Positions 14,857 through 28,792 of a stretch of DNA of 64,000 bases are shown here, one piece after another. Origin of the DNA: Arthrobacter terrae (lineage in GTDB: Bacteria; Actinomycetota; Actinomycetes; Actinomycetales; Micrococcaceae); assembly GCF_015708085.1 (NCBI RefSeq), contig NZ_JADNYM010000012.1, forward strand, positions 1 to 64,000, given 5' to 3'. The first letter of the stretch is position 1. Each line of letters begins with the position of its first letter. The notes under the pieces were generated by a model. It searched no databases and was not told the DNA's origin. It worked only from the letters and a program-made list of their open reading frames with translations. The position numbers were made by a program, and so were the translations under genes.

Positions 14857-14874
14857 AGCGGGAGTGGCTAAGAC

Positions 14875-17565
14875 ATGAGCGAGGACTTCGTAGGCCGGGA
14901 GACCGAACTGGCTGCAATCTGGCGTGCGATGGCTCCCGGCGGGACCCGTTCGGTCACTCTCGTTGGAGCGGCCGGTGTTGGTAAGACCAGGATTGCCCGG
15001 GTCGTCCTGGACCGGGCAGCCGGCCTCGGACGGTCGGCGTTTTGGGTCGCTGCGACTTCCTCAGCGTCCACCATACCTTTCGGCGCCGTCTCCCACCTGG
15101 TGCCCGATGTTGCCGGGTTGGACCGCTTCCAGTTGCTGCGGCGGACCGCGGCCTGGATGGCCACCCGACCCGGCACGGTGCCGCCCGTCGTCGTCGTCGA
15201 TGACGCACAGCGGCTCGATGATGCATCCGCGGCCCTAATACACCATCTGGCGGTGACAGGGACAGCTTTCATCGTCAGCACTGTGCGGGCAGGAGACAAG
15301 GCGCCGGACGCGATCACTGCGATCTGGAAGGACGGACTCGGTGACCGGATGACTATTGGTCCGTTCACCCGCCTCCGCGCCGAGGAATTCGTCGGCTGCC
15401 TTCTTGGCGGTCCGCTGGATCCCGTTTCAGCGGCGGGGCTCTGGCATCTGAGTGAGGGAAATGCCCTCTACCTGCGCGAGTTGGTGCGTGGCGGGATAGA
15501 GTCCGGGGAACTTCGGCTAAGCCGCGGCGCGTGGCGCTGGTCGGGCCTCGTGTCAGCGGCGCCACGGTTGATCGAATTTGTCACTCAACGGCTGGCCGGA
15601 GCGAGTCGCGACGTTCGCTCTCTGGTGGATTTGGTGTCCTTCGGCGAGCCGCTCGGCGTGGAAACCATAGCGCGGGCGGGCATCGGCGCGCCGACCGTCG
15701 GCGCCGCCGAAAAGTCCGGGCTGGTGCGCTCGGAAGCAACGCCCGAGGGGATCGTGATCCGGCTGGGACACCCGTTGTACGGCGAGGTGGCCCGCGGGCT
15801 GTCCACTTCGCTCCAGCGGGCCACAGTCGCGCAGACCCTGCTGCGCTCTGCGGAGCCGGCCGTTCGAGGGGAACATATTCTGCGTCGTGCCGTGTGGCTC
15901 CTGATGACAGGTGTCCCTTCCGAGCCACACATATTGGTCCAGGGTGCCATTCGGTCGCTGGCAGCCCTCGACCTGGAGATGGCCAGCCGGCTGGCCGATG
16001 CTGCGGTGAAAGCCAACGGCGGGGTGGCGGCCGAAACCGTCCTGGCCCGGACGCTGGTGCTGCGCGGCAGTGCTGCTGCGGCCGAGGCATTACTGGCCGC
16101 GATGGAGCAGCGGGAGTTGCCTGATGGAGACCGGGCCGAGCTGGCAGCCGCGCGGGCCTGGAATCTGGTCTTCGGATTGAAGCGTTCCGCCGACGCGGAA
16201 TCCGTATTGGACAGTGCCGGGCGTCGGATTGTTCAAGGCCGTGATCTTCTTGCCGTGCAGCGCGCGAACATCCGTACCTATGCCGGTCTCCCCGAGGAGG
16301 CCCTGGCAGCAGCCGCAGGGGTGGCCGAAGATGGAGCCGGCTCGACGGTGGACGCCGTGCTGCGGAAGTGGGTGGTGTGCGCAGAAGCCATGTCCGTGCA
16401 AGGCCGCGTCAATGATGCGCTGAAGTACGGTCGGCGGGCTGTCGCTCTCAACCGGAGAACATCCCACGGTGACTGGTCGATGTCCGAGGACGAGGCCGAG
16501 TCGGCCCTCGCGGGCGCGCTGATTATGTCCGGTGGCCTGACCGAGGCCGGGGAAATAATCGAGACGGCGTATGCCAGAGCCGTGGAAGCCGGCTGGCGGA
16601 TCGGAACGGGGATGTGGAGCGTCTGGCGAGGCGAGCTAAGCTTTGCCCGAGGTCGGCCGGCCACCGCTGCCAGGCACTACCGAACAGCTCTGGCGGTGGC
16701 CGGCGAGGATTCCCATCCATATCTGGAATGGACCATGAGGTTTGCCTGGGATCATCTGGCCCGTGCGGCCGCCCAGCTAAACGATTCGTCGCTCGCTGAT
16801 GCAGCGTTCGCGTCCGCTAATGGTTATGCCTGGTCGGGGTTAGGGGCCCTGGATGTGTGGGGCGGGTCAACGGCCGGCTGGGTTGCTGTAGCCAGGGGCG
16901 AGATTGAACACGGCATCTCTCTGGCGCTGGTGGCAGCGGAACGGGCACGGCGGGACCGGCAGTTCGGCTGGGAACTCCTGGCGCTGCATCAGGTGGTACG
17001 GTTCGGTGCCCCGAAGAAGGCCAATGGCAGGCTCGCGGAGCTTGCTGCTGAGGTGGACGGCTCGTTGACCGGTCTCTATGTCCGCCATACTGCTGCGCTC
17101 GCGGCCGGCGATGGCGCGGCTCTTGGTGCCGTCGCGGATCAATTCAGCAGCTGCGGCTACATGCTTCTGGCGGCTGAGGCAGCAGCGCAGTCGTCCCGGG
17201 CACACGCTCGCGATGGGCGCACCAGCGCCGGCGCCGAGGCCTCTCGGCGCGCCCTTGGCTGGGCCGCACTCTGTGAAGGGGCCCGGACCCCGGCACTTGC
17301 CGTGTTGAACGAACCGGCACGGCTCACCCGCAGGGAGACGGAAATTGCGCGGCTCGTGGCCGTTGGACTGAGCAACCGGCAGATCGCGGAAAAACTGGTT
17401 ATCTCGATCAGAACCGTCGACAACACCGTCGCGCACATTTACGACAAGCTGGCCGTTTCCCGTCGGCAGGACTTGGCGGGAATATTCTGCAGCGAAAATG
17501 AGCAACGTCCTGCTCATGACGGCAGCCTCCTTCATCCCTACGGTGGGAGCACCCAGGCTAACTAG
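14875..17565 (+). CDS. Large ATP-binding LuxR (LAL/MalT-like) transcription regulator
   Basis: An 896-residue regulator. The N terminus is a STAND/AAA-type ATPase: FVGRETELAAIWRAM, Walker A GAAGVGKTR (about residues 26-34) and Walker B VVVVDDAQRL. A long helical, TPR-like middle follows, rich in Ala/Leu. The C terminus (about residues 820-880) is a LuxR helix-turn-helix, LTRRETEIARLVAVGLSNRQ then IAEKLVISIRTVDNTVAHIY. Proteins of this layout integrate a ligand signal with ATP binding and activate nearby operons. GGGAG precedes the ATG. It ends 25 bp before the matrixin-like protease gene on the same strand, which it may control or be co-transcribed with. Confidence 0.9.
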   Translation: MSEDFVGRETELAAIWRAMAPGGTRSVTLVGAAGVGKTRIARVVLDRAAGLGRSAFWVAATSSASTIPFGAVSHLVPDVAGLDRFQLLRRTAAWMATRPGTVPPVVVVDDAQRLDDASAALIHHLAVTGTAFIVSTVRAGDKAPDAITAIWKDGLGDRMTIGPFTRLRAEEFVGCLLGGPLDPVSAAGLWHLSEGNALYLRELVRGGIESGELRLSRGAWRWSGLVSAAPRLIEFVTQRLAGASRDVRSLVDLVSFGEPLGVETIARAGIGAPTVGAAEKSGLVRSEATPEGIVIRLGHPLYGEVARGLSTSLQRATVAQTLLRSAEPAVRGEHILRRAVWLLMTGVPSEPHILVQGAIRSLAALDLEMASRLADAAVKANGGVAAETVLARTLVLRGSAAAAEALLAAMEQRELPDGDRAELAAARAWNLVFGLKRSADAESVLDSAGRRIVQGRDLLAVQRANIRTYAGLPEEALAAAAGVAEDGAGSTVDAVLRKWVVCAEAMSVQGRVNDALKYGRRAVALNRRTSHGDWSMSEDEAESALAGALIMSGGLTEAGEIIETAYARAVEAGWRIGTGMWSVWRGELSFARGRPATAARHYRTALAVAGEDSHPYLEWTMRFAWDHLARAAAQLNDSSLADAAFASANGYAWSGLGALDVWGGSTAGWVAVARGEIEHGISLALVAAERARRDRQFGWELLALHQVVRFGAPKKANGRLAELAAEVDGSLTGLYVRHTAALAAGDGAALGAVADQFSSCGYMLLAAEAAAQSSRAHARDGRTSAGAEASRRALGWAALCEGARTPALAVLNEPARLTRRETEIARLVAVGLSNRQIAEKLVISIRTVDNTVAHIYDKLAVSRRQDLAGIFCSENEQRPAHDGSLLHPYGGSTQAN

Positions 17566-17590
17566 GCCAAACACCGCAAAGGATGATGAC

Positions 17591-19570
17591 ATGCCGAAAA
17601 ATACAGTGCAGCAGGGGACGGGGCAGCAGGGGACGGAATCCGAACCTTCAAGGTCGTATCTGCCCGTAGGACTGGTTCAGGCGGGAGATGCAGGGGCGGA
17701 TGTTCAACGGACCTATAACTATCTCGAAAAATTCGGTTACCTGCCGAATGCACAACTGGCGCAACGATATCCATCGTGGCGGCCGGGAGTGGCTCAGGCG
17801 CCACCGGACCCTACCCGCTTTGATTCCCGTCTGGAGGAAGCCGTTCGGTTGTTTCAGCGCAGCTACGGTCTTGCCGAAACCGGACAGGTAGACCAGCCAA
17901 CACGGGAGCTGATGAGGCAACCGCGGTGCGGTGTTCCGGACAACGTCAGTGTACTGGGCCAGTTCGTGGTGGGCGGCACCAGATGGCCGGGACTGAACGT
18001 CACTTACTCGCACACAAATTTTTCCCCCGATCTGCCGGGCGCCGACGTACGTTCAACAATCCGCGGAGCCTTTGACCGCTGGTCAGCGGCCGCGCCGCTG
18101 CACATCACCGAAAAGGCCGGCGGAAGCGGCGACGCAGACATCCGGGTCGGCTTTTACGCCGGCGACCACGGTGACGGGTACCCCTTCGACGGCGCGGGAA
18201 CCGCCGCCGGAAATGTTTTGGCACACTGCTTCTATCCCCCGGGCCCCGGAGACAACGGGATCGGCGGCGACTGCCACTTCGACGAAGCGGAGACTTGGAG
18301 CACTAACCTGCCACCGGCGGGAACAGACCTGCCGACCGTTGCTCTGCATGAGCTCGGCCACGGGCTGGGACTGAACCATTCGGACGTCAAGGATTCCGTC
18401 ATGTATGCCTACTACGGCGGCGCTCGGCGGGAATTGACGGCCGATGACATTGCCGGCATCAGATCGATTTACGGTGGGTATGACTGGTCCGGGATCAACG
18501 ACAACTGGGCATCCCTTGGCGGCTTCTTCCCTGTCGGTGCGCCGATAAGCGCCGTGTCCCGGTTCCCCGGACAGCTGGACCTTTTCGTCGTGGGCAATGA
18601 CGGCCGGGTCTACACCTCATGGTGGACCAGCGGGCAAAATTGGTCCGGTGTGCAGGACAACTGGCGGTCGATTGGCGGGTTCTTCCCTCCGGGTGCGCCG
18701 GTTGCCGCCGTTTCCCGGACGGCGAATAACCTGGATCTGTTTGTCTGCGGTAATGACGGCCGGGTGTACACCTCCTGGTGGTATGCGGGTGCGGATTGGT
18801 CCGGCGTAAACGATAATTGGCGCTCTATTGGCGGGTTCTTCCCCAATGGGGCTCAGCTCTCGGCGGTGGCCCGGACGGCGAATAACCTGGATCTGTTTGT
18901 CTGCGGTAATGACGGCCGGGTGTACACCTCGTGGTGGTATGCGGGTGCGGATTGGTCCGGCGTGAACGATAATTGGCGCTCGATTGGCGGGTTCTTCCCC
19001 AATGGGGCGCCGGTCGCAGCGGTGGCCCGGACGGCGAATAACCTGGATCTGTTTGTCTGCGGTAATGACGGCCGGGTGTACACCTCCTGGTGGTATGCGG
19101 GTGCGGATTGGTCCGGCGTGAACGATAATTGGCGCTCGATTGGCGGGTTCTTCCCCAATGGGGCTCAGCTCTCGGCGGTGGCCCGGACGGCGAATAACCT
19201 GGACCTGTTCGTCTGCGGTAATGACGGCCGGGTGTACACCTCGTGGTGGTATGCGGGGGTGGATTGGTCCGGCGTGAACGACAACTGGCGTTCTATTGGC
19301 GGGTTCTTCCCCAATGGGGCGCCGGTCGCAGCGGTGGCCCGGACGGCGAATAACCTGGACCTGTTCGTCTGCGGTAATGACGGCAGGGTCTATACCTCGT
19401 GGTGGTATGCGGGTGCGGATTGGTCCGGCGTGAACGACAACTGGCGTTCTATTGGCGGCTTCTTCCCCAACGGTGCTCCGCTGTCGGCGGTGGCCAGGAC
19501 GGCGAATAACCTGGATGTGTTTGTCTGTGGGAATGACGGACGTGTCTACACCTCGTGGTGGAGCGGGTAA
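17591..19570 (+). CDS. Matrixin-like zinc metalloprotease with cysteine switch and seven C-terminal repeats
   Basis: A 659-residue protein. Residues 25-110 look like a peptidoglycan-binding-like helical domain (GADVQRTYNYLEKFGYL ... AVRLFQRSYGLAETGQVD). Residues 111-117 are PRCGVPD, the cysteine-switch motif that keeps eukaryotic matrix metalloproteases latent. The catalytic domain (about 128-295) has DHGDGYPFDGAG, the structural metal region, then HELGHGLGLNHS at 253-264 (three zinc ligands and the catalytic Glu) and a Met-turn SVMY. From 299 to the end are seven 52-residue repeats, probably a beta-propeller, resembling PLL-like lectin blades. No signal peptide is evident. ATG 17591 has AAAGGA 8 bases upstream; ATG 17498 lies inside the preceding gene. 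Confidence 0.88.
   Translation: MPKNTVQQGTGQQGTESEPSRSYLPVGLVQAGDAGADVQRTYNYLEKFGYLPNAQLAQRYPSWRPGVAQAPPDPTRFDSRLEEAVRLFQRSYGLAETGQVDQPTRELMRQPRCGVPDNVSVLGQFVVGGTRWPGLNVTYSHTNFSPDLPGADVRSTIRGAFDRWSAAAPLHITEKAGGSGDADIRVGFYAGDHGDGYPFDGAGTAAGNVLAHCFYPPGPGDNGIGGDCHFDEAETWSTNLPPAGTDLPTVALHELGHGLGLNHSDVKDSVMYAYYGGARRELTADDIAGIRSIYGGYDWSGINDNWASLGGFFPVGAPISAVSRFPGQLDLFVVGNDGRVYTSWWTSGQNWSGVQDNWRSIGGFFPPGAPVAAVSRTANNLDLFVCGNDGRVYTSWWYAGADWSGVNDNWRSIGGFFPNGAQLSAVARTANNLDLFVCGNDGRVYTSWWYAGADWSGVNDNWRSIGGFFPNGAPVAAVARTANNLDLFVCGNDGRVYTSWWYAGADWSGVNDNWRSIGGFFPNGAQLSAVARTANNLDLFVCGNDGRVYTSWWYAGVDWSGVNDNWRSIGGFFPNGAPVAAVARTANNLDLFVCGNDGRVYTSWWYAGADWSGVNDNWRSIGGFFPNGAPLSAVARTANNLDVFVCGNDGRVYTSWWSG
18485..19567 (+). 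repeat. Seven 156-bp coding tandem repeats
   Basis: Seven in-frame units of 156 bp, the last short by two to three codons, encode WSGVNDNWRSIGGFFPNGA followed by (P/Q)-(V/L)-(A/S)-AVARTANNLDLF and VCGNDGRVYTSWWYAG. Units 1-2 are divergent and units 3-7 are nearly identical in DNA. Units 3 and 5 share the AQLSAV variant and units 4 and 6 share APVAAV, which points to duplication of a 312-bp dimer. Confidence 0.95.
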
Positions 19571-19640
19571 TCCGGGGTGGCATCGGCTTTCCACCGTCGG
19601 TGCCCGGACTGAATACCTGCTGCGGGTGGCACGGCCGTGG

Positions 19641-20543
19641 TCAGCCCTGCCGGGCCAGCTGGAACTGCTCTACCACCCGGCCCATCCGCAGCAGCAGTTC
19701 CTCGCCTGCCATGATGCCCCGGGCAGTGGTGACCGTGAGATTGGAACTGCGGTAGCCGCCGTCGTCCAGCTCGCCGTGGGCCGGCCGGAAGGCGATGTTT
19801 GCCTCTGCCAGCATCTGCCGGTCCAGCAGCGAGTCGCCGGCGGCAATCACGGTCCCGGCACCGGTGCGCCGCTGCACCTCCGCCACGGCGCTGCTCTTCG
19901 TGACCGGCTGCGGGACGCAGTAGAGCTTGCGGCCCTGCAGCGACACCGTCCAGCCCAGCGCCAGGCACTGCTGCTCCAGCCCGGCGACGAAGTCCTCCGG
20001 CATGGCCTCGCGGTCAACAATTGCATAGATAAATAAGTCCTCGGCATGGCGGAGCTTGAGGATCCATGAGGAAAACGCCGGATCTGCCAGTATTGCCTCC
20101 ACCGTCTGCAGCGGCGCGCAATGGGCAGCGGTGCGGCGGGCGATCGACGCGTGCCAATGTGCGTCCGGCTGGCCGTGGTGAAGCAAAACGCCGCCATTGG
20201 TGGTCACGGCATACTCCTGCTCGGGCCCCGGCAGCCGGACACGCCGGTACTGGGCAGCGGTCCGGGTGGTCACCGGGACCACCGTCGCCGCCGCCTTAAG
20301 CGCCAGCAGCAACGTTTCGGCGGTGCGGGTCATGAAGGAGATCGGGATGCCTTGGTACAGTTCGACGACGACGATCGGCGGGGCCTGCTCGTCCGGCACG
20401 TCCAGCCAGAAGGCCTTGGGCGAGTAGATCAGTGTGCGGTCGAGGTCGCAGGCCAGAAGCGGCGGCACGGGTCTGCCGGCTGCGGGTCGGCCGGTCACAG
20501 CGCGGCCGGTCACAGGTCTGCCGGTCACAGGTCTGCCGGTCAC
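19641..20543 (-). CDS. HAD family phosphatase of the Ter-associated biosynthetic module
   Basis: About 300 residues. HAD motif I is ACDLDRTLIYSP (nucleophile and general acid Asp), motif II is in VVPVTTRTAAQYRRV, motif III is the Lys near QPVTKSSAVAEV and motif IV is AAGDSLLDRQMLAEA. The cap is of the Cof/sucrose-phosphatase type, so a sugar-phosphate or nucleotide-like substrate is plausible. It is the last gene of the Ter operon. The start is taken as GTG 20543, which overlaps the upstream stop as GTGA; however the N terminus lies in four 15-bp repeats, each giving another in-frame GTG (20543, 20528, 20513, 20498), so the true N terminus is open. The 21 or so residues before motif I are V/A-T-G-R-P repeats. 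Confidence 0.8.
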   Translation of the reverse strand: MTGRPVTGRPVTGRAVTGRPAAGRPVPPLLACDLDRTLIYSPKAFWLDVPDEQAPPIVVVELYQGIPISFMTRTAETLLLALKAAATVVPVTTRTAAQYRRVRLPGPEQEYAVTTNGGVLLHHGQPDAHWHASIARRTAAHCAPLQTVEAILADPAFSSWILKLRHAEDLFIYAIVDREAMPEDFVAGLEQQCLALGWTVSLQGRKLYCVPQPVTKSSAVAEVQRRTGAGTVIAAGDSLLDRQMLAEANIAFRPAHGELDDGGYRSSNLTVTTARGIMAGEELLLRMGRVVEQFQLARQG

Positions 20544-20550
20544 AGCGCGG
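20491..20550. repeat. Four 15-bp tandem repeats over a stop/start junction
   Basis: Four units of 15 bp, CCGGTCACAG plus GCGGG- or GTCTG-like ends, at 20491, 20506, 20521 and 20536. On the minus strand each unit contains GTGA, so the repeat provides the stop of the StiP-like gene and successive GTG start codons for the HAD gene. Confidence 0.85.
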
Positions 20551-21742
20551 CCGCGACTGCGCGGCCGTCGGCACCGGTGGCACCCTTCGTGAACAGCGGG
20601 TGGATCAGTCCCACACAGCTGTAGGCGAGGTCCGTGACCTCCACCACCGGAACGCCTCGCTGTTCGGCCAGCAGCAGCACGTGTGCCACCTCGGCTCTGG
20701 CCTCGGGCCGAATCAATATTTTCCACGGTACCCGGCGCAGCAGTACGCGCGTGGTCTCGCCGACACCGGGCTTGACTAAGTTCACATTATTGATCCCGTA
20801 ATTTTCGCTGATGCCCTCGACGGCCTTCCAGCCGGCCCAGTTGGGCATCCTTTCGTGCGACGGTTGGGATCTGGCGAACTCCGTACCACGGTCCACGGTG
20901 GCCAGGACGTCACCGAAGTGGCTGCACACGGTAGCCAGGAACTGCCCCGAGACGTCGCTGCCGCGCAGACCGGTGTAGAACTTGGCACCGTGGAAATCTC
21001 CCGGGCCGATCAGCCGGCGGTTGAACACCGTGCGGGAAACGAGGCCCGAGACGGTTGAGTTCAGGCAGGCCGAGGGAATGAGGTAGTCCTCGCGCGTGCC
21101 GTACAGGCCCACGCAGTGTCCCGGGTCCGCCAGCACGGCAAGGTCGTCCTTGAAGGTGACGCCGTCCGTTTGCTCAAAGCGCTGGAGGGCGATGGAGAGC
21201 TCGCGGACAATCGCGCCCTTCCCGGTCCATCCGTCGACGAAGATAATCCGGGCCGGGTCATAATGTGCGGCCAGATAGCGCAGGGCGTTTTCGTCCGCAC
21301 CCACGCCGCGCACGATGCTCATCGTGTAGTGCGGCACATCGATGCCCCGGATTTCCCGGGCCCAGCGCCGCATCAGGATACCCACCGGTGTCCCGGCGCG
21401 GGCCAGCGACACCAGGACCGGCTGCTGTTCCCGGGCTGCCAGCAGCAGATCCGTCACGATGCCTACTGCCTCCGCGATCCGCCGGCCCGACCGCTGCAGG
21501 GCGTCGCGGTAGAGCTGCTGATATTCCGCGCTCGGGGTGTACTCAACAGGGAGGGATTCGGCATAATTAGCTGATCCACTCTGGATGGCCTGTTCCCGTA
21601 CGCCGGTCGGTGCTTCCAGCTTGGCGTCCCCCAGGTCCGTCAACAGCCAGCGGACGTCTTCGGCAGGGTAAGAGCCAAAGTCCGGCCCGGTCAGCGGGAC
21701 TGGCAGCACCTGGTGGCTGGCCGGATCACTGGTGCGGGGCAT
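20540..21742 (-). CDS. StiP-like PRTase-fold protein of the Ter cluster
   Basis: A 400-residue protein of the family annotated as StiP (formerly called a cysteine protease, now regarded as a phosphoribosyltransferase-like protein). SYPAEDVRWLLTDL near the N terminus and the loop RIIFVDGWTGKGAIVRELS, in the position of a PRPP-binding loop, are the main marks, together with VSLARAGTPVGILMRRW. The family is largely confined to tellurium-resistance gene clusters, where it pairs with a second phosphoribosyltransferase, an aldolase-like protein and a HAD phosphatase, all present here. ATG 21742 has AAGGA 7 bases upstream and overlaps the end of the preceding gene by 17 bp; the frame's earlier ATG at 21814 is unlikely. 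Confidence 0.82.
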   Translation of the reverse strand: MPRTSDPASHQVLPVPLTGPDFGSYPAEDVRWLLTDLGDAKLEAPTGVREQAIQSGSANYAESLPVEYTPSAEYQQLYRDALQRSGRRIAEAVGIVTDLLLAAREQQPVLVSLARAGTPVGILMRRWAREIRGIDVPHYTMSIVRGVGADENALRYLAAHYDPARIIFVDGWTGKGAIVRELSIALQRFEQTDGVTFKDDLAVLADPGHCVGLYGTREDYLIPSACLNSTVSGLVSRTVFNRRLIGPGDFHGAKFYTGLRGSDVSGQFLATVCSHFGDVLATVDRGTEFARSQPSHERMPNWAGWKAVEGISENYGINNVNLVKPGVGETTRVLLRRVPWKILIRPEARAEVAHVLLLAEQRGVPVVEVTDLAYSCVGLIHPLFTKGATGADGRAVAAAL

Positions 21743-23168
21743 GGGGTCCTTGTCTGAAATTGTCGGCTGCGGCCGCGGGGGATGCGGCAGGAAGGAGTAC
21801 GACGACGACGTCACCGCAGATAGCGGACAGCGCCTCGGTGATGCTCCCGGTCCCGGAAAGCACCGCCGGATCGGTCCCCGGTTCGGGCATCACGATGATG
21901 GTACCGAAGCGGAATCCAGCCCGGGACAGATTGTAGGCAAAACGGGGGCCGGGACCATCCTCGGTTGCGTCATGGCTGGTGAATCCAACGGAGCTGGCGA
22001 TGGCGTAGTCCGGCCGGTCCAGCGCCACGATCGGTGAGCGGGTTGTGGTGGAGAACCGCACCGGAAAATCAGTGTCGAGGGCGTGAGCTACCGCGAGGGG
22101 CAGCGAGATGAACTCCTCCGTGCCCAGGACCAGTACCTCCTCGGGCGAGCGTCCGGCAAAAGCCGCACGCACGCGCGCCGCTATTGCAGCCGCAGATCCT
22201 AAAGATTCATGGACCCTTACCGCGTGGTTGTTGCCGAACCTGTCACTGCTGATGGGAGCGACTTCCTCTGTCCCCATGGCCAGGAATGTGATGGAGCCCA
22301 ACTCCGCAGCCGGTGAGGGGGGCGCGGCCGGCAGGGCGGCGATGAATTCCTCGCAGCGTGGCAGGATGTCCGGACCCAGATTGATCCTGCCGCTGCTTAA
22401 GGCGACCACGCTGATCGTTGCACCCAGGGAACCGGACAGCTCGTCAAAGCGTTCGCGGTCCCCGGCTGCGCGCAGATCAACCAGCGCAGCAACAATATAT
22501 TCCCGTTGCGGCATAAGCCTGTGAAGTTCCCGGATCGTGTTAATGATCGTTGACCCGGTGCTCAGCTCGTCGTCGACCAGGACGACCGTGCCGCCTCGTC
22601 GCAGCCACGGGTCCTCGGCGGGCAGCAGCCGGTGCGAGGTGGCGTGTGAATGGCCTTCCTCGAAGGCTGCCACCGGTCTGGATCCGAGTGCCGAGTGCCG
22701 GGTGGAGTGGATGTAGTAGGAACCGATGCTCTCCGCGACCAGCCGGCCCAGACCGGTCGCCGTTTCGGCGTAACCAATCGTGACGACGCCCGGGTGGCTG
22801 GTCGCCAGCGCTGTGAGGGTTTTCCGCAGTTCCAGCAGCGCTGGTTTTTCGTGCAGCGGGCCGTCCGCGGACCGCAGCGAGGCAGCGAATGCCTCCGCCG
22901 CGCTCCGTAGTTCCGGGCTGTGCTCAAGCAGACCCGCGAGCCGCTCCGCCACCATCGCCCCGAGCAGCAAGCCAGCGGCGATGGCCAGCGAAGGAACAGT
23001 GGGCACATGCTTGGCCAGGACCCGGGATACCAGCAGATGAGCACGCTTCGGATTACGGCGAAGGGCAAGCCCCACCAGATCCTTCACGTCCATCAGGCTC
23101 CCGCCGACGGACTCAATTTGGACGCCAAGCTCCCGCTGCACGCAATCGCCCGTCCAGACACTTGTCAA
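21726..23168 (-). CDS. Phosphoribosyltransferase with TRSP domain (Ter cluster)
   Basis: About 480 residues in two domains. The N-terminal part is a type I phosphoribosyltransferase with the PRPP loop TVVLVDDELSTGSTIINTI and an upstream VWTGDCVQRELGV segment that is conserved in this group. The C-terminal part carries FSTTTRSPIVAL, containing the TRSP motif after which the domain is named. Such fused proteins occur in Ter-associated biosynthetic operons and are predicted to form a nucleoside-like product; the reaction is unknown. The start is taken as TTG 23168, which overlaps the preceding stop as TTGA and keeps the conserved WTG segment; GTG 23141 and ATG 23093 would remove it. Confidence 0.82.
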   Translation of the reverse strand: MTSVWTGDCVQRELGVQIESVGGSLMDVKDLVGLALRRNPKRAHLLVSRVLAKHVPTVPSLAIAAGLLLGAMVAERLAGLLEHSPELRSAAEAFAASLRSADGPLHEKPALLELRKTLTALATSHPGVVTIGYAETATGLGRLVAESIGSYYIHSTRHSALGSRPVAAFEEGHSHATSHRLLPAEDPWLRRGGTVVLVDDELSTGSTIINTIRELHRLMPQREYIVAALVDLRAAGDRERFDELSGSLGATISVVALSSGRINLGPDILPRCEEFIAALPAAPPSPAAELGSITFLAMGTEEVAPISSDRFGNNHAVRVHESLGSAAAIAARVRAAFAGRSPEEVLVLGTEEFISLPLAVAHALDTDFPVRFSTTTRSPIVALDRPDYAIASSVGFTSHDATEDGPGPRFAYNLSRAGFRFGTIIVMPEPGTDPAVLSGTGSITEALSAICGDVVVVLLPAASPAAAADNFRQGPHAPHQ

Positions 23169-24424
23169 TTCATTCCCGCTTCCAGAAAGTCGACAAAGGT
23201 GACCTCCGGGGCGGCGACGCCGAAGGCCGCTGCGCGGAGCAGGGTCTGCCGTGCCCACCCTTGGTGCGGCTTCATTTCGTTCATCTTGTTGCCGTACGCA
23301 GAGGCCGCTGCGCCACCGCTACTATTACCTGCGATCTCTTTCGCGTCCAGGAACTCCTCGTGGCTAATGACGGAGAGCGCATGCACCAGGGGAACGTGGC
23401 TGGGGTGGATCACGGTTTTGCCCAGCAGGCCGTTGGCGTGGTCCAAGGAGATCTCGCGCATCAGCCCATCAAGGTTGGCCAGCAGGATCCGCTGCCGCAA
23501 CGCTACATCGTCGGACTCCGCGAACGGTGTGGCCCGCAGCAGCGGCCGGAGCAGCCTCTCGGTGTTGGCATAGTGCTCCCAGACCGGACCGGAGATAACA
23601 AAGCCATCTTCACTGCGGCCCAGGACGTTGACAATATCGCCGATCACCGAGGCCACAACCTTCACGTCGTAGATCGTCAGGTCGCGGGATCTGCGCAGAC
23701 CGAAGGTGCTGGACATGTCCGTGGCGCCAATCCGGACCGCCAGGATGTCCTCCCGGTGTGCCTGCAGCACGGTGCGGATATTCGCCAGCGCGGCCGATCG
23801 CGTTTCGCGGTGAATCACGATAGGCGATTCGAGGATTGGCATGATCCGCAATCGGCGGTTGCCAAGGGCCCGGTGGGAGGCTGGCTCCTGGGCCGTACCG
23901 GACGCGCCCGGCCGGGCGGCCGCATGGATGGCCTGGACGTTCTGCAGAGCATCGAGGAACAATTGCGCGCGGCCCGTCTCATTGTCAAATTTCGGAATGA
24001 CAAATCCGGCAAGAAGATCCAGGGATGCACCACACCGTCGGGCCAGGCGGATCATCTGCTCGGGAGTGCGCACGCGGATAAAGAGCATCAGCCGGCTGTC
24101 GAGGGATGGGGCGGTGCCGCCGTCGGCTGAGGGACCGGTGGCTTCCTGCCGCAGCAGCTCCAGCGTACGCACAACATTGTCCTCGGCAGCTTCCACAGCA
24201 TTGTCCGCAATGGAATCCTCCAGGCACAGCACCATGCTCAGGCAGCCGCGGGAGGATTGCTTGATCACATCGGCGGCGAGTTGCGGTCTGTCTGCGGGCG
24301 AGTACAACGTTGCACCCAAGGCCACGGCCAGGAGTTCCGGATCGGACTCAAGAGTCAGCGCTTGCGGGCGGGCATGGAAGAGCCGGCAGGCCTGCTGCTC
24401 TGTGAGGAAGTCAAAGTGACGCAT
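23165..24424 (-). CDS. HpcH/HpaI aldolase / CitE-like lyase (Ter cluster)
   Basis: A 419-residue TIM-barrel protein of the C-C bond lyase group related to CitE and HpcH/HpaI. MVLCLEDSIAD contains the acidic metal ligand region, LFIRVRTPEQM the basic substrate strand, and IRIGATDMSSTFGLRR and HPSHVPLVHALSVISHEE the late-barrel motifs of the family. Together with two phosphoribosyltransferase-like proteins and a HAD phosphatase it forms the metabolite module seen beside TerD genes in many bacteria. GGAGGTAAAA lies 5-6 bases before the ATG, inside the 3' end of the upstream gene. Its own stop overlaps the next gene's TTG start. Confidence 0.85.
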   Translation of the reverse strand: MRHFDFLTEQQACRLFHARPQALTLESDPELLAVALGATLYSPADRPQLAADVIKQSSRGCLSMVLCLEDSIADNAVEAAEDNVVRTLELLRQEATGPSADGGTAPSLDSRLMLFIRVRTPEQMIRLARRCGASLDLLAGFVIPKFDNETGRAQLFLDALQNVQAIHAAARPGASGTAQEPASHRALGNRRLRIMPILESPIVIHRETRSAALANIRTVLQAHREDILAVRIGATDMSSTFGLRRSRDLTIYDVKVVASVIGDIVNVLGRSEDGFVISGPVWEHYANTERLLRPLLRATPFAESDDVALRQRILLANLDGLMREISLDHANGLLGKTVIHPSHVPLVHALSVISHEEFLDAKEIAGNSSGGAAASAYGNKMNEMKPHQGWARQTLLRAAAFGVAAPEVTFVDFLEAGMN

Positions 24425-24430
24425 CGGCTT

Positions 24431-25204
24431 TTACCTCCCCCGGTTCCCTTGGACGGTGACTTTGCGGGTCATGCTGAAGCCAAATTCCGCCCAAATGTCT
24501 TGGTCGTTCATCCCGGCAGGGACCGGCTCGGCACGCAGTTCAATGAGATTATCCACCCGAAGCAATGCGAGTACGAACATGGTGTTGCCAGTCGGGGCTG
24601 GAAGTGTCGCCGCAGCGCCGTCGAAAATGTGCATCCCCAATGGCTCCGGACCGCGCCCTATGAAGAGCGCCCGGCGCAGCTCCTGCAGGTGCCGCAGGGG
24701 CACCAGAGCTTCCCCCTCGAGGTAACCCGCCAGCGGGCGGTTGCCGGCGGTTTCTACCGCCGTGCCGGCAAAGTTCCCGTCCCTGGTCAGTGCTCCGGTG
24801 AGGTGAGCGCCCGTGGCATGGCCGGCGGCCTCCCAAGCGATGGCCGTTGTGCCGGTAACAATGAGCGTACCGATTCCGGATTGCAGGGGATTGAGCCGGA
24901 ACATGGGTACAGTGGGTCCGATTTCCATGACGTCACGGATCCCCGGAGCACGGAAGAGCCCTGCCGTCACGGAGGCAGGAGGACGGCGAACGGGAGCCGC
25001 TGCATCGGAGCCGGCAGTTGCCGGCGGTCGGGACGCGACAGGAGCCGGGTGTTGCGCAACACCCGGGCGGTTAAGGTTGAGACCGGTGCTGCGGGGGGCC
25101 TGCTCAGGAGCAGCTGCCGGACGCACGGCGCTAGTGTCCGGCGCCTTGACCCTGCGGCGAAGGTACCCAATGTCCGTCCGGACGGGCGAAGATTTCCCTG
25201 GCAT
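24431..25204 (-). CDS. Unrecognised Ter-operon protein
   Basis: A 257-residue protein I do not recognise. Residues 1-85 are a Pro/Ala/Arg-rich, probably disordered stretch; residues 90-255 look like a compact beta-rich domain (VPMFRLNPLQSGIGTLIVTG, then HLQELRRALFIGRG and NTMFVLALLRVDNLIELRAE). The final part, AGMNDQDIWAEFGFSM, faintly recalls the end of TerA-type proteins, but I cannot confirm it. The gene starts 3 bases after the TerD-like gene and ends 6 bases before the CitE-like gene, so it is firmly part of the operon. No signal peptide or membrane segment is visible. Low expectation of a catalytic role. Confidence 0.7.
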   Translation of the reverse strand: MPGKSSPVRTDIGYLRRRVKAPDTSAVRPAAAPEQAPRSTGLNLNRPGVAQHPAPVASRPPATAGSDAAAPVRRPPASVTAGLFRAPGIRDVMEIGPTVPMFRLNPLQSGIGTLIVTGTTAIAWEAAGHATGAHLTGALTRDGNFAGTAVETAGNRPLAGYLEGEALVPLRHLQELRRALFIGRGPEPLGMHIFDGAAATLPAPTGNTMFVLALLRVDNLIELRAEPVPAGMNDQDIWAEFGFSMTRKVTVQGNRGR

Positions 25205-25207
25205 TAG

Positions 25208-25759
25208 CTAGACGTCCACCCGGAAGTCCTTGGCCACGCCGGCCAGTCCGGTGGTATAGCCCTGGCCCAAAGCGCGAAACTTCCAGTCGTCGTGGTGCCG
25301 GTACAACTCGCCGAACATCATTGCCGTGATGTTGTCGTCGCTGCTGAGCGGGACGTCGAAGCGGACCAGCTCACGGTTCCCGGCGGTGGCAACCCGGATG
25401 TAGGCGGAGCGGACAGCGGAAAAATTGCCGGGACCACGGACCTCGGGATCCACGTAGACAATGAACGCGATCTTGGCGACCGCCGCCGGCACCTGCGCCA
25501 GATCGACGTCGATCTGTTCCTGATCGGTGTCACCGGCAAAGGTGACAGATCCATCGGCACTGACGAGCTGATTGAAAAAGACCAGATGGTCCCCGGACAC
25601 CGCTGCGCCGTCCGCATTGCACATAACGGCCATTGGAACCAGTTCGGCAGCCGGCCCGCGGCTGGGAATGGTGTCCCAGCCGAGCCCGACCAGAACCTTG
25701 GTCAGGCCGCTGTTCTCCGCGGTGAGCGCCGCGTTGGCGCCCGGGACCAGGCTTGCCAC
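25208..25759 (-). CDS. Divergent TerD-domain protein
   Basis: A 183-residue TerD-fold protein. The backbone pattern is clear: LTKVLVGLGWDTIP, HLVFFNQLVSADGSV, VDLAQVPAAVAKIAFIVYVD, SAVRSAYIRVATAGNRELV and FRALGQGYTTGLAGVAKDF all line up with the other TerD proteins of the operon. The calcium-binding stretches do not: DLDASA is replaced by AELVPMAV, and GDNxxGxGxGDDE by GDTDQEQ. It may have lost metal binding and act as a structural partner. GTG 25759 overlaps the upstream TAG stop by one base (TAGTG), indicating coupled translation. Confidence 0.85.
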   Translation of the reverse strand: MASLVPGANAALTAENSGLTKVLVGLGWDTIPSRGPAAELVPMAVMCNADGAAVSGDHLVFFNQLVSADGSVTFAGDTDQEQIDVDLAQVPAAVAKIAFIVYVDPEVRGPGNFSAVRSAYIRVATAGNRELVRFDVPLSSDDNITAMMFGELYRHHDDWKFRALGQGYTTGLAGVAKDFRVDV

Positions 25760-26271
25760 TACTGACCGTCCAATCGCAGCTGGCTATCCGGGGCGGCAAA
25801 CTTGTCCGCCAAGAAGCGACCGTGGGTGGAGAGCTCCGCGATGGCCCCGGTCCGGATCTGATTCAGCAGGTCATGAACGGTGGCTTCCAAGGTGGTCAAC
25901 TGCTCCACGAAGAGGCCGGTGGCGCGCGAGTCCTCTGCGCGTTCGGCATCGGTCATGGCCAGATAGGCGCGCAGTGGAGTGGGGATATAGTCGCTGATCA
26001 TGGCCGCCAGCAGTACGCGCTGCTCAGTGGAGGCGTTTTGCGCAGCGATGGTGGCCATCACAACGCGCAGCAGGTCCTCGATCTGGCGCAGCTGGGAAGA
26101 AAGCAACGGCGGCAGGACGGCGCCGGCGCGGCGGATATCCGTGCGCAACTGATCCAGCGCACGCGCCGTGCGGGCGTCGTCGGCCTCCACCTCGCTCTGC
26201 TGGCTCTGCGGAACCACTCCTGCCGCCGCAGGAGGGTTCTTGAACAGAGATCCAACGAATTTCCCGATCAC
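25759..26271 (-). CDS. Small helical protein next to TelA (possible XpaC-like partner)
   Basis: A 170-residue, almost wholly alpha-helical protein without a metal or nucleotide motif: ALDQLRTDIRRAGAVLPPLL, QIEDLLRVVMATIAAQ and FVEQLTTLEATVHDLLNQI. It follows telA by 35 bp. In Firmicutes TelA-family genes are preceded or followed by xpaC-type genes of similar size and helical content, and this protein may play the same partner role, but sequence identity to XpaC is not something I can claim. The start is a GTG (26271) with GGTGGAG just upstream. Confidence 0.65.
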   Translation of the reverse strand: MIGKFVGSLFKNPPAAAGVVPQSQQSEVEADDARTARALDQLRTDIRRAGAVLPPLLSSQLRQIEDLLRVVMATIAAQNASTEQRVLLAAMISDYIPTPLRAYLAMTDAERAEDSRATGLFVEQLTTLEATVHDLLNQIRTGAIAELSTHGRFLADKFAAPDSQLRLDGQ

Positions 26272-26306
26272 CGCTCCACCGCCTGTTCTCTGATCATCCG
26301 CCCGTT

Positions 26307-27500
26307 CTAGCCTCTCTGGTTTTGCTGAGAGCGTTCCAGATACGGTTTCGCCTTCTCCAGACCGGTCTCCAGGGCGGATACCGTTCCTTCCATGTTTTTA
26401 GCCGCTGTGGCGCGGAAGGTATCGATCGCGTCCATGGTGGCAAAGACGTTATCGAAGGCTTTTTGCAGCGTCTCCACGCTGACCCCGGAGCTGGATGCCT
26501 GCTCATGGATCCGGACCGTCTGATCCTTGAGCATCTCGCTGGTCTTGAGGATCATGTTATTGGTGGTGGTGTTGATCGCGTCGATCTGATCCAGCACCAT
26601 CTTCTGATTAGCCAGCGCCTGCGCCACGATGACGGCTGTGCGCAGAGCCGCAATCGTCGTCGTGCGGGCGCGATCCACGCCCTTAATGAGTTCCAGGTTG
26701 TTCTTGCGGATCAGATCCATCGCCAGATAACCCTGCACGGACACGGCGAGCTGCGTCAGGATGTCCTGATGGCGCTGCCGGATCGGGAAGAGCACGTCGC
26801 CCTCAAGCTTCTGGGCTTCCTCGATCTGCCCCTTTGCACGCGTGGCGTCGATCTTTTCCACGCAGGCAGCATCGAGTGCCTTGGCAAACACCGCGTATTC
26901 ACTCAGCGACTGCATGGTTTCCCACAGCTGCACCTTTTCGCCCGCCAGGGCCGCGTTGTCCTTGAGCAGTTCATCCTGGCCGGACATCAGGGCCTTGATG
27001 ATGTGGTCCAGCTGAGTCTGGGCCGACTCGTACTTCTGGAAGTACTTTGCCATCTTGTTTCCGCCGGGGATGAAACCAAGAATTTTCCGCCCCACGCTCA
27101 GATCGGCCTGGTTAGGGGTCAGGTCCTCCACCGTGGAGCGCAGCTCACCGAGGGTGCCGGCAACTGCCGCCTGCGCGTTATTGCCGCTGCGCTTCGCACC
27201 GGCCACTGAGGTAGAGGAGCGCTCCAGCATGCGCGTGGAGTACCCGCTGGACTGCGTCATCTCCGAACCCGCGATCTTGGAGATGCCCTCCACCTTCGTG
27301 GTGAAATCGGGGCTTCGCGGGTCAAGTCCCGCAAGCTCGGAGACAAACTCCTTGGCCTGCCGGTGGATTTCAAGCTGGCGTTCCTGCGGCACCGGAACCA
27401 TGCCGGGGGCGTCGTCGGGCTCAACAATGGCCGGAGCGTCCGGCGCGCGCAACACCAGCGCCGTATCGGTGGTTTCCGGGGGAGTCAGGGGGGAAGTCAT
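26307..27500 (-). CDS. telA: Toxic anion resistance protein TelA
   Basis: A 397-residue soluble, helical protein of the TelA/YaaN/KlaA family (PF05816). Characteristic stretches are SVGRKILGFIPGGNKMAKYF, FQKYESAQTQLDHIIKAL, DNAALAGEKVQLWETM and VDRARTTTIAALRTAVIVAQ. Length is normal. TelA proteins are associated with resistance to tellurite and other stresses, and in Ter systems they co-occur with TerD proteins and a TerC-type membrane protein; their biochemical action is not established. There is a 100-bp gap upstream, with a GC-rich partial inverted repeat at 27530-27571 (GGGGC ... CTGCC/GGCAG ... GCCCC) that could be a processing or weak termination site within the operon. Confidence 0.9.
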   Translation of the reverse strand: MTSPLTPPETTDTALVLRAPDAPAIVEPDDAPGMVPVPQERQLEIHRQAKEFVSELAGLDPRSPDFTTKVEGISKIAGSEMTQSSGYSTRMLERSSTSVAGAKRSGNNAQAAVAGTLGELRSTVEDLTPNQADLSVGRKILGFIPGGNKMAKYFQKYESAQTQLDHIIKALMSGQDELLKDNAALAGEKVQLWETMQSLSEYAVFAKALDAACVEKIDATRAKGQIEEAQKLEGDVLFPIRQRHQDILTQLAVSVQGYLAMDLIRKNNLELIKGVDRARTTTIAALRTAVIVAQALANQKMVLDQIDAINTTTNNMILKTSEMLKDQTVRIHEQASSSGVSVETLQKAFDNVFATMDAIDTFRATAAKNMEGTVSALETGLEKAKPYLERSQQNQRG

Positions 27501-27600
27501 ATCTGTGGCCAGCCTGTTCTTCTGGTAGCTGCGGGGCCGTACTCTGCCTTACCGGCAGCGGACAGCCCCGCCTGTTGAAAGCATCGGGTTGAGGGAAAAT

Positions 27601-28182
27601 TCAGCCCAGAACGACGCCGAAGTCATTGGCAATCCCGGCGAGGCCTGTGGCGTAGCCCTGTCCGACTGCCTTGAACTTCCACTCCGGGCCGTTGCGGTAA
27701 ATCTCGGCGAAAACCATGGAGGTCTCCGGAGCGGCGTCCTCGCTCAGATCGAAGCGGACAATTTCCGTTTCGTTCCCCGCATTAACGACGCGGCAGTAGG
27801 CGCTGCGGACCTGCCCGAAGTTCTGCCGCCGTTCCTCTGCCTTATCGATCGATACGACGATCACCACCCGCTCAACATCGGGCGCTACCAGCGTCAGATC
27901 AATGGCAATCTGTTCGTCGTCGCCGGCGCCCTCGCCGGAACGGTTATCGCCCTTGTGGATGACCGAGCCGTCTTTGGCCTGCGGTTGGTTGTAGAAAATG
28001 AAGTCATCGGAGGACCTCACCTTCCCATTGGCACCCACCAGGAGCGCGGAGGCATCCAGGTCAAAGGCTTCGCCGCTGGTGGTGCGCGGATCCCAACCCA
28101 GCCCAACTACCGCCTGGGCCAGGCCCGGATCGGCCTTGGTCAGGGAGAGGTTGTTACCTTTTTCAAGCGTCAATCCTGCCAT
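27601..28182 (-). CDS. terD: TerD family protein (copy 3)
   Basis: A 193-residue TerD protein. It begins [19 protein letters not shown], has the calcium-binding segments FDLDASALL and GDNRSGEGAGDDEQ, and ends FKAVGQGYATGLAGIANDFG. TerD proteins are cytoplasmic, bind calcium, and are thought to assemble with TerC at the membrane in stress responses including tellurite exposure. GGAGGAA precedes ATG 28182; an in-frame ATG at 28320 lies inside the neighbouring gene and is not used. It is about three quarters identical to the next copy by eye, so the two arose by recent duplication. Confidence 0.92.
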   Translation of the reverse strand: MAGLTLEKGNNLSLTKADPGLAQAVVGLGWDPRTTSGEAFDLDASALLVGANGKVRSSDDFIFYNQPQAKDGSVIHKGDNRSGEGAGDDEQIAIDLTLVAPDVERVVIVVSIDKAEERRQNFGQVRSAYCRVVNAGNETEIVRFDLSEDAAPETSMVFAEIYRNGPEWKFKAVGQGYATGLAGIANDFGVVLG

Positions 28183-28210
28183 GGGTTCCTCCTGCTTGTC
28201 GGGTTTTAAT

Positions 28211-28792
28211 CTAGTCGAGTGTGATGCCGAAGTCCGTGGCGATGCCGCGGAGTCCGCTGGCGTACCCCTGACCAACGGCACGGAACTTCCATTCGGCACC
28301 GCTGCGGTATACCTCGGCAAAGATCATTGATGTCTCGGCCGCGGCATCCTCGCTGAGGTCATAACGGACGATCTCCTGATCCGAATCCTGGTTGACCACC
28401 CGGCAGAATGCGTCGCGCACCTGGCCGAAATTCTGGCGGCGGGACTCGGCCTCGTCAATGGAGACCACAATGACTACGCGTTCAACATCCGCAGCCAGAA
28501 TGCTCAGATCGATCAGGATCTGTTCGTCGTCCCCCTCACCTTCACCGGTGCGGTTGTCACCCTGATGGACCACGGAGCCGTCTTTAGCCTGCAGCTGGTT
28601 GTAGAAGATGAAGTCATCCTGCGAACGCACCTTGCCGTTGGAACCGATCAGCAGCGCCGAGGCATCCAGATCGAACGCTTCGCCGGCGGTGCTGCGGGGG
28701 TCCCAGCCCAAACCGACCATGGCGCGCTTGAGCCCCGGATCCGCTTTGGTCAGTGAAAGATTACTGCCCTTGGAAAGTGTCAGACCTGCCAT
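28211..28792 (-). CDS. terD: TerD family protein (copy 2)
   Basis: A 193-residue TerD protein nearly collinear with copy 3: [54 protein letters not shown] and [20 protein letters not shown]. Both calcium-binding acidic loops are intact. It sits 28 bp from copy 3 and 47 bp from the TerZ-like gene, same strand. Acts presumably in the same membrane-associated TerC-TerD assembly. Confidence 0.92.

Follow-up and report, generated by a model that had tools for sequence, protein, structure and literature searches.

The window, by which we mean the whole stretch of 64,000 nucleotides of Arthrobacter terrae DNA that was analyzed, carries on its forward strand a gene for a leaderless promatrixin with a lectin tail. 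The gene runs from position 17591 to 19570 (ATG at 17591, stop codon included) and encodes 659 amino acids; a ribosome-binding-like sequence, AAAGGA (17578 to 17583, forward strand), lies 7 bases 5′ to the ATG. On the same strand, and ending 25 bp upstream of the promatrixin, is the gene of an 896-amino acid LuxR-type ATPase regulator (14875 to 17565) with AAA_16, TPR-like and GerE regions by Pfam. This regulator probably controls expression of the promatrixin. Among the loci examined it is kept only in the sister, Paenarthrobacter sp. PH39-S1 (L004/L045, 95% identical), and the idea of a conserved LuxR partner is therefore rejected. The two genes make up a unit (14863 to 19645) that is absent from a congener (G001), in which the sequences bordering it, at about 14862 and 19645, adjoin directly. 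The regulator and promatrixin thus represent either an insertion of two genes, 4.8 kb in length, or a pair that has been cleanly lost in that congener. Right beside the unit begins what we take to be a ter-like operon (about 19641 to 28792). The promatrixin has no match in the phage collection, and a phage origin is rejected on that basis.

The protein has three parts, all encoded on the forward strand. A PG_binding_1-type prodomain (residues 35–108; 17693 to 17914; Pfam 1.7e-9) is followed by the cysteine switch PRCGVPD (residues 111–117, including Cys113; 17921 to 17941). The matrixin catalytic domain (residues 132–295; 17984 to 18475) matches Peptidase_M10 (PF00413) at 3.1e-44, with 151 bits against a cut-off of 24, and contains the catalytic zinc motif HELGHGLGLNH (residues 253–263; 18347 to 18379) and the Met-turn at Met271 (18401–18403). 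Together with DHGDGYPFDGAG, the translation of the gene holds the full set of these motifs. The C-terminal part, from about residue 306 to 659 (18506 to 19567), is a putative seven-bladed beta-propeller lectin of the PLL/BP39L type. The sequence-only reading of this DNA had proposed a matrixin preceded by an MMP-type prodomain and a cysteine switch; the Pfam matches to PG_binding_1 and Peptidase_M10, with PRCGVPD at 111–117, bear this out; its coordinates and residue numbers are exact. Its interpretation as a whole is partly supported.

The zinc motif HExxHxxGxxH and Met271 are invariant in 51 relatives, and by analogy with the MMPs His193, Asp195, His212 and His229 present the ligand pattern of a structural zinc. 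The predicted fold of the catalytic domain aligns with many MMPs at Z values of about 24–28. Beside the structural-zinc histidines there is an extra pair of cysteines, Cys213 (18227–18229) and Cys228 (18272–18274); the second is found in 11 of the 13 relatives that have the first, and a disulfide between them is possible in oxidising surroundings. The same genome encodes a second matrixin-like protein (L002, contig C56) that has a transmembrane segment and is without a cysteine switch.

How close is the prodomain to that of the animal enzymes? In sequence searches the pro and catalytic domains together match human proMMP-1 at 3.6e-46, and the PDB matches of the isolated prodomain are MMP zymogens only (best 6e-6). 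This rules out a chance resemblance, and the prodomain is thus MMP-like, beyond a generic peptidoglycan-binding fold. An AlphaFold2 model of the pro and catalytic unit, made with 51 sequences, has a pLDDT of 87.5, and proenzymes head the Foldseek list for this model, above catalytic-only structures. Structural alignment of residues 38–298 of the model with proMMP-1 gives Z 27.9, with 1.6 Å over 214 residues. Since prodomain and catalytic domain superpose jointly, Cys113 should be positioned where the proMMP cysteine caps the zinc. A cysteine unable to reach the zinc, named by the sequence-only reading as the result that would tell against it, is not what the superposition of the predicted fold indicates.

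How general is the switch among bacteria? In a 51-row alignment of bacterial relatives from several phyla, Arg112, Cys113 and Asp117 show the invariance of the zinc ligands, with variation at 114–116; since the rows were chosen by motif pattern, this invariance arises partly by construction. The motif is also present in all relatives with a prodomain-spanning match (one that starts at query position 45 or earlier), a criterion that is independent of the motif pattern. At locus L113 the prodomain carries RCVHPE. On these alignments R-C-x-x-x-D is the norm in the bacterial subfamily. The switch had earlier been termed vertebrate-type, a description that we set aside: R-C-x-x-x-D occurs in 51/51 aligned prodomain-bearing bacterial relatives, and three human MMPs form a single branch. 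Our analysis suggests that the cysteine switch is widespread in bacteria, with a plan common to relatives in several phyla.

The tail comprises seven 52-amino acid repeats encoded by a 156-base tandem repeat. Within the gene the units (18596 to 19568) are nearly identical as DNA, as if recently homogenised. NCBIfam NF052348 ('beta propeller lectin') matches residues 306–659 with 222 bits against a cut-off of 200, and the sequence of BP39L in the PDB matches the same residues at 1.4e-32. The full-length model (pLDDT 85.3) has seven blades of four strands each, as had been anticipated in the description of a seven-unit propeller-like tail. The best structural match of the tail is BP39L (6gxr; Z 40.6, 1.9 Å, 319 residues), and the next are the Photorhabdus PLL lectins and PHL at Z of about 35–36. 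Neither the BP39L equivalog cut-off (151 of 400 bits) nor that of CV39L (169 of 350 bits) is reached. By profile and predicted fold, then, the tail is a seven-bladed lectin of the PLL/BP39L type. The hemopexin domain has four blades. Pfam gives no hemopexin match anywhere in the promatrixin, and with a predicted fold of seven blades a hemopexin tail is rejected. Of the prodomain–catalytic–hemopexin order that had been perceived, the first two domains stand, but the third is a different propeller, so that the arrangement merely resembles that of the animal enzymes, with the lectin occupying hemopexin's place. Among relatives there are tails of other sugar-binding or repeat types, including ricin-B, B_lectin (just below cut-off) and ChW. 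In the same genus an M64-type peptidase is fused to the same lectin type with no evident leader (L006 and L013); such fusions are seen in congeners and other Micrococcaceae (L006, L007, L008 and L013). At a further locus (L005, reverse strand), where the DNA is 72% like the lectin repeats of the window, the propeller is followed by a region with HELTHAWQ, a possible metallopeptidase partner.

The promatrixin has no recognizable signal peptide. That a real one was overlooked through a wrong start site is barely credible: there is an in-frame ATG upstream at 17498, but starting there yields no hydrophobic leader and overlaps the upstream gene, while a stop 8 codons before the ATG makes a signal peptide impossible in the sister, and for L070 and the plasmid protein L150, too, stops shortly before the start close the reading frame. 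A home-made hydrophobicity rule was used to scan 79 named loci for leaders. With L105 and L071 excluded as truncated, and a leader match at L050 put down to an upstream start judged spurious, 50 of the 55 switch-bearing rows (window included) are leaderless, against 6 of the 21 loci without the switch (Fisher 1.8e-7), although on reading the N-termini by eye two of those six (L112 and L120) seem to have leaders, and L077 is truncated. Leaders are found in 15 of the 21 loci without the switch and in 5 of the 55 with it; all five are Myxococcota and lipoprotein-like. The absence of a signal peptide noted in the sequence-only reading therefore stands, closed off by the stop in the sister, but it is a family-wide property and not an oddity of this protein.

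The leaderless switch loci belong to Actinomycetota, Chloroflexota, Acidobacteriota, Pseudomonadota, Bacillota and Cyanobacteriota, with one Myxococcota record, and leaderless switch matrixins also occur on Paenibacillus plasmids. The switch is not tied to the leaderless state, since members from Myxococcota keep the switch yet look like lipoproteins. On well-supported branches there are two independent contrasts of switch and leader only, and the association is therefore a correlation that does not imply cause; it may be plain inheritance. Thus a link beyond phylogeny is rejected, the raw counts being strong but the independent pairs too few. Absence of a leader need not mean retention in the cell, as the lectins PLL2 and PLL3 are found extracellularly though they have no recognised signal peptide (PMC12203525).

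We favor, with moderate confidence, an explanation in which a leaderless promatrixin is latent in the cytoplasm, is activated after release, and is held on glycans by its lectin. The cysteine switch may prevent the enzyme from harming the cell that produces it. Reduced Cys113 would ligate the catalytic zinc and so silence the enzyme in the reducing cytoplasm, a latency that would serve as a safety catch against self-digestion. The protein would leave the cell independently of Sec, through lysis or in some other way. Outside, cleavage of the prodomain, or else oxidation of Cys113, would free the zinc to give an active protease, and the multivalent lectin would keep it on glycan-bearing targets.

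The same features could serve a protease that acts within the producer, for example a lethal or defence enzyme freed by stress through the cysteine switch. The lack of a leader, the ability of a thiol switch to sense oxidation, and the adjoining LuxR-ATPase regulator all fit such a role. Yet a propeller of glycan-binding type has no obvious target in the cytoplasm, nor have the sugar-binding tails of the relatives, and the Myxococcota members resemble exported lipoproteins. We consider an intracellular role unlikely.

A leaderless protein might also leave by way of a contractile injection system (CIS), as cargo packed in a phage-tail-like particle and delivered when the particle is released. 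The genome does have a CIS-like cluster (contig C1, 92–132 kb; L138/L139), with a Pvc16_N match at 2.4e-25 and sheath-, tube- and baseplate-like reading frames, and in the class sample Pvc16_N is present in 4 of 7 genomes with strong switch matrixins, compared with 57 of 388 others. However, the cluster lies on a different contig from the promatrixin, and the flanks of 79 related loci hold no homologues of the CIS proteins of this genome. Pvc16_N is missing from genomes G002, G008, G053, G291, G302 and G365, and its excess tracks lineage (Streptomyces and Arthrobacter). With no linkage in the 79 flanks, and an excess at genome level that follows lineage, we regard delivery as CIS cargo as improbable and reject it.

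The Pfam label PG_binding_1 invites the further idea that the prodomain is a true wall anchor, instead of or besides being an inhibitor. We doubt this strongly: the domain alone matches in sequence only MMP prodomains in the PDB, and in the model it packs as in the proMMPs, although the two roles could coexist.

In view of the high similarity to human proMMPs, might the gene have been acquired recently from an animal, and with it the animal-like switch? This is very unlikely. The trees, both of the catalytic domain and of the pro and catalytic domains together, place the protein of the window among Actinomycetota, where it nests with actinobacterial relatives at 54–63% identity and away from the human sequences, and the tail is of a bacterial lectin type. 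An animal origin is therefore rejected. In the tree of the pro and catalytic domains, an unrooted one with three rows from animals, human MMP-1, -3 and -9 form one branch, and this falls in a starred set (100/93) with leaderless switch proteins from Actinoplanes, a Paenibacillus plasmid and a Dehalococcoidia bin. Parsons and Fournier were likewise unable in 2025 to fix the family's root with an outgroup, though they favored a bacterial origin (PMC12587646). We put forward, tentatively and as the less probable side of the question, that the MMP switch belongs to an old and widespread class of leaderless bacterial lectin-proteases, in which a reduced thiol would act as a cytoplasmic safety catch, and that the animal MMPs arose inside this class and acquired their signal peptide and hemopexin afterwards.

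Comparison with known systems places the latent promatrixin of our preferred explanation more exactly. Human proMMP-1, -3 and -9 (MEROPS M10A) share with it a homologous unit that comprises prodomain, PRCGVPD and catalytic domain, but the protein described here is bacterial, has no signal peptide, and has a seven-bladed lectin in place of hemopexin. Karilysin of Tannerella forsythia, a bacterial MMP whose zymogen structure has been solved, has the matrixin domain in common (Z 25.0 to 2xs4). Its propeptide is of 14 residues with an aspartate switch (PMC6949598), in contrast to the full MMP-type prodomain and cysteine switch found here. A cysteine switch has been demonstrated structurally in another bacterial metzincin, promirolysin of the pappalysin family (PMC6949598), but this belongs to a different family, is secreted, and has a short pro-segment with a Cys-Gly motif. 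BP39L and the PLL-family lectins share the fold (Z 40.6 to 6gxr; about 35–36 to PLL2–PLL5) and the repeat sequence of the tail, whereas the propeller here is the C-terminal module of a protease and falls below the BP39L/CV39L equivalog cut-offs.

The cysteine switch of MMPs has been described for mammals and supposed for other animals, plants and fungi (PMC6949598). MMPs of PF00413, the family to which our protein belongs, are wide in bacteria, with transfer between animals and bacteria inferred by Parsons and Fournier, whose main text is silent on the cysteine switch, the prodomain and Actinobacteria (PMC12587646). A fold survey of 2025 already lists an architecture of beta-trefoil with peptidoglycan-binding and matrixin domains (PMC12225799). 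In the mainly open literature covered, which leaves out the review of non-vertebrate MMPs that Marino-Puertas and colleagues published in 2017 (cited in PMC6949598), we found no description of leaderless cysteine-switch matrixins. With a bacterial family that has the complete prodomain and conserves the switch, ideas on where MMP latency came from can be put to a direct test, and bacterial promatrixins provide simple models for the mechanism of the proMMPs. They also pose a puzzle, of why leaderless enzymes with sugar-binding tails retain an inhibitory prodomain.

The neighbourhoods of other switch matrixins have features of their own. In Pseudarthrobacter/Arthrobacter, at L084, L088 and further loci, the matrixin has in its vicinity an S8 subtilase that looks leaderless, an alpha/beta hydrolase and a SARP-like regulator, joined at L084 by a non-specific endonuclease; these surroundings possibly constitute an island of leaderless hydrolases. 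On a plasmid of Streptomyces globosus (L152, 1590 to 3921) a switch matrixin is preceded, at a distance of about 130 bp, by a gene of the serpin family.
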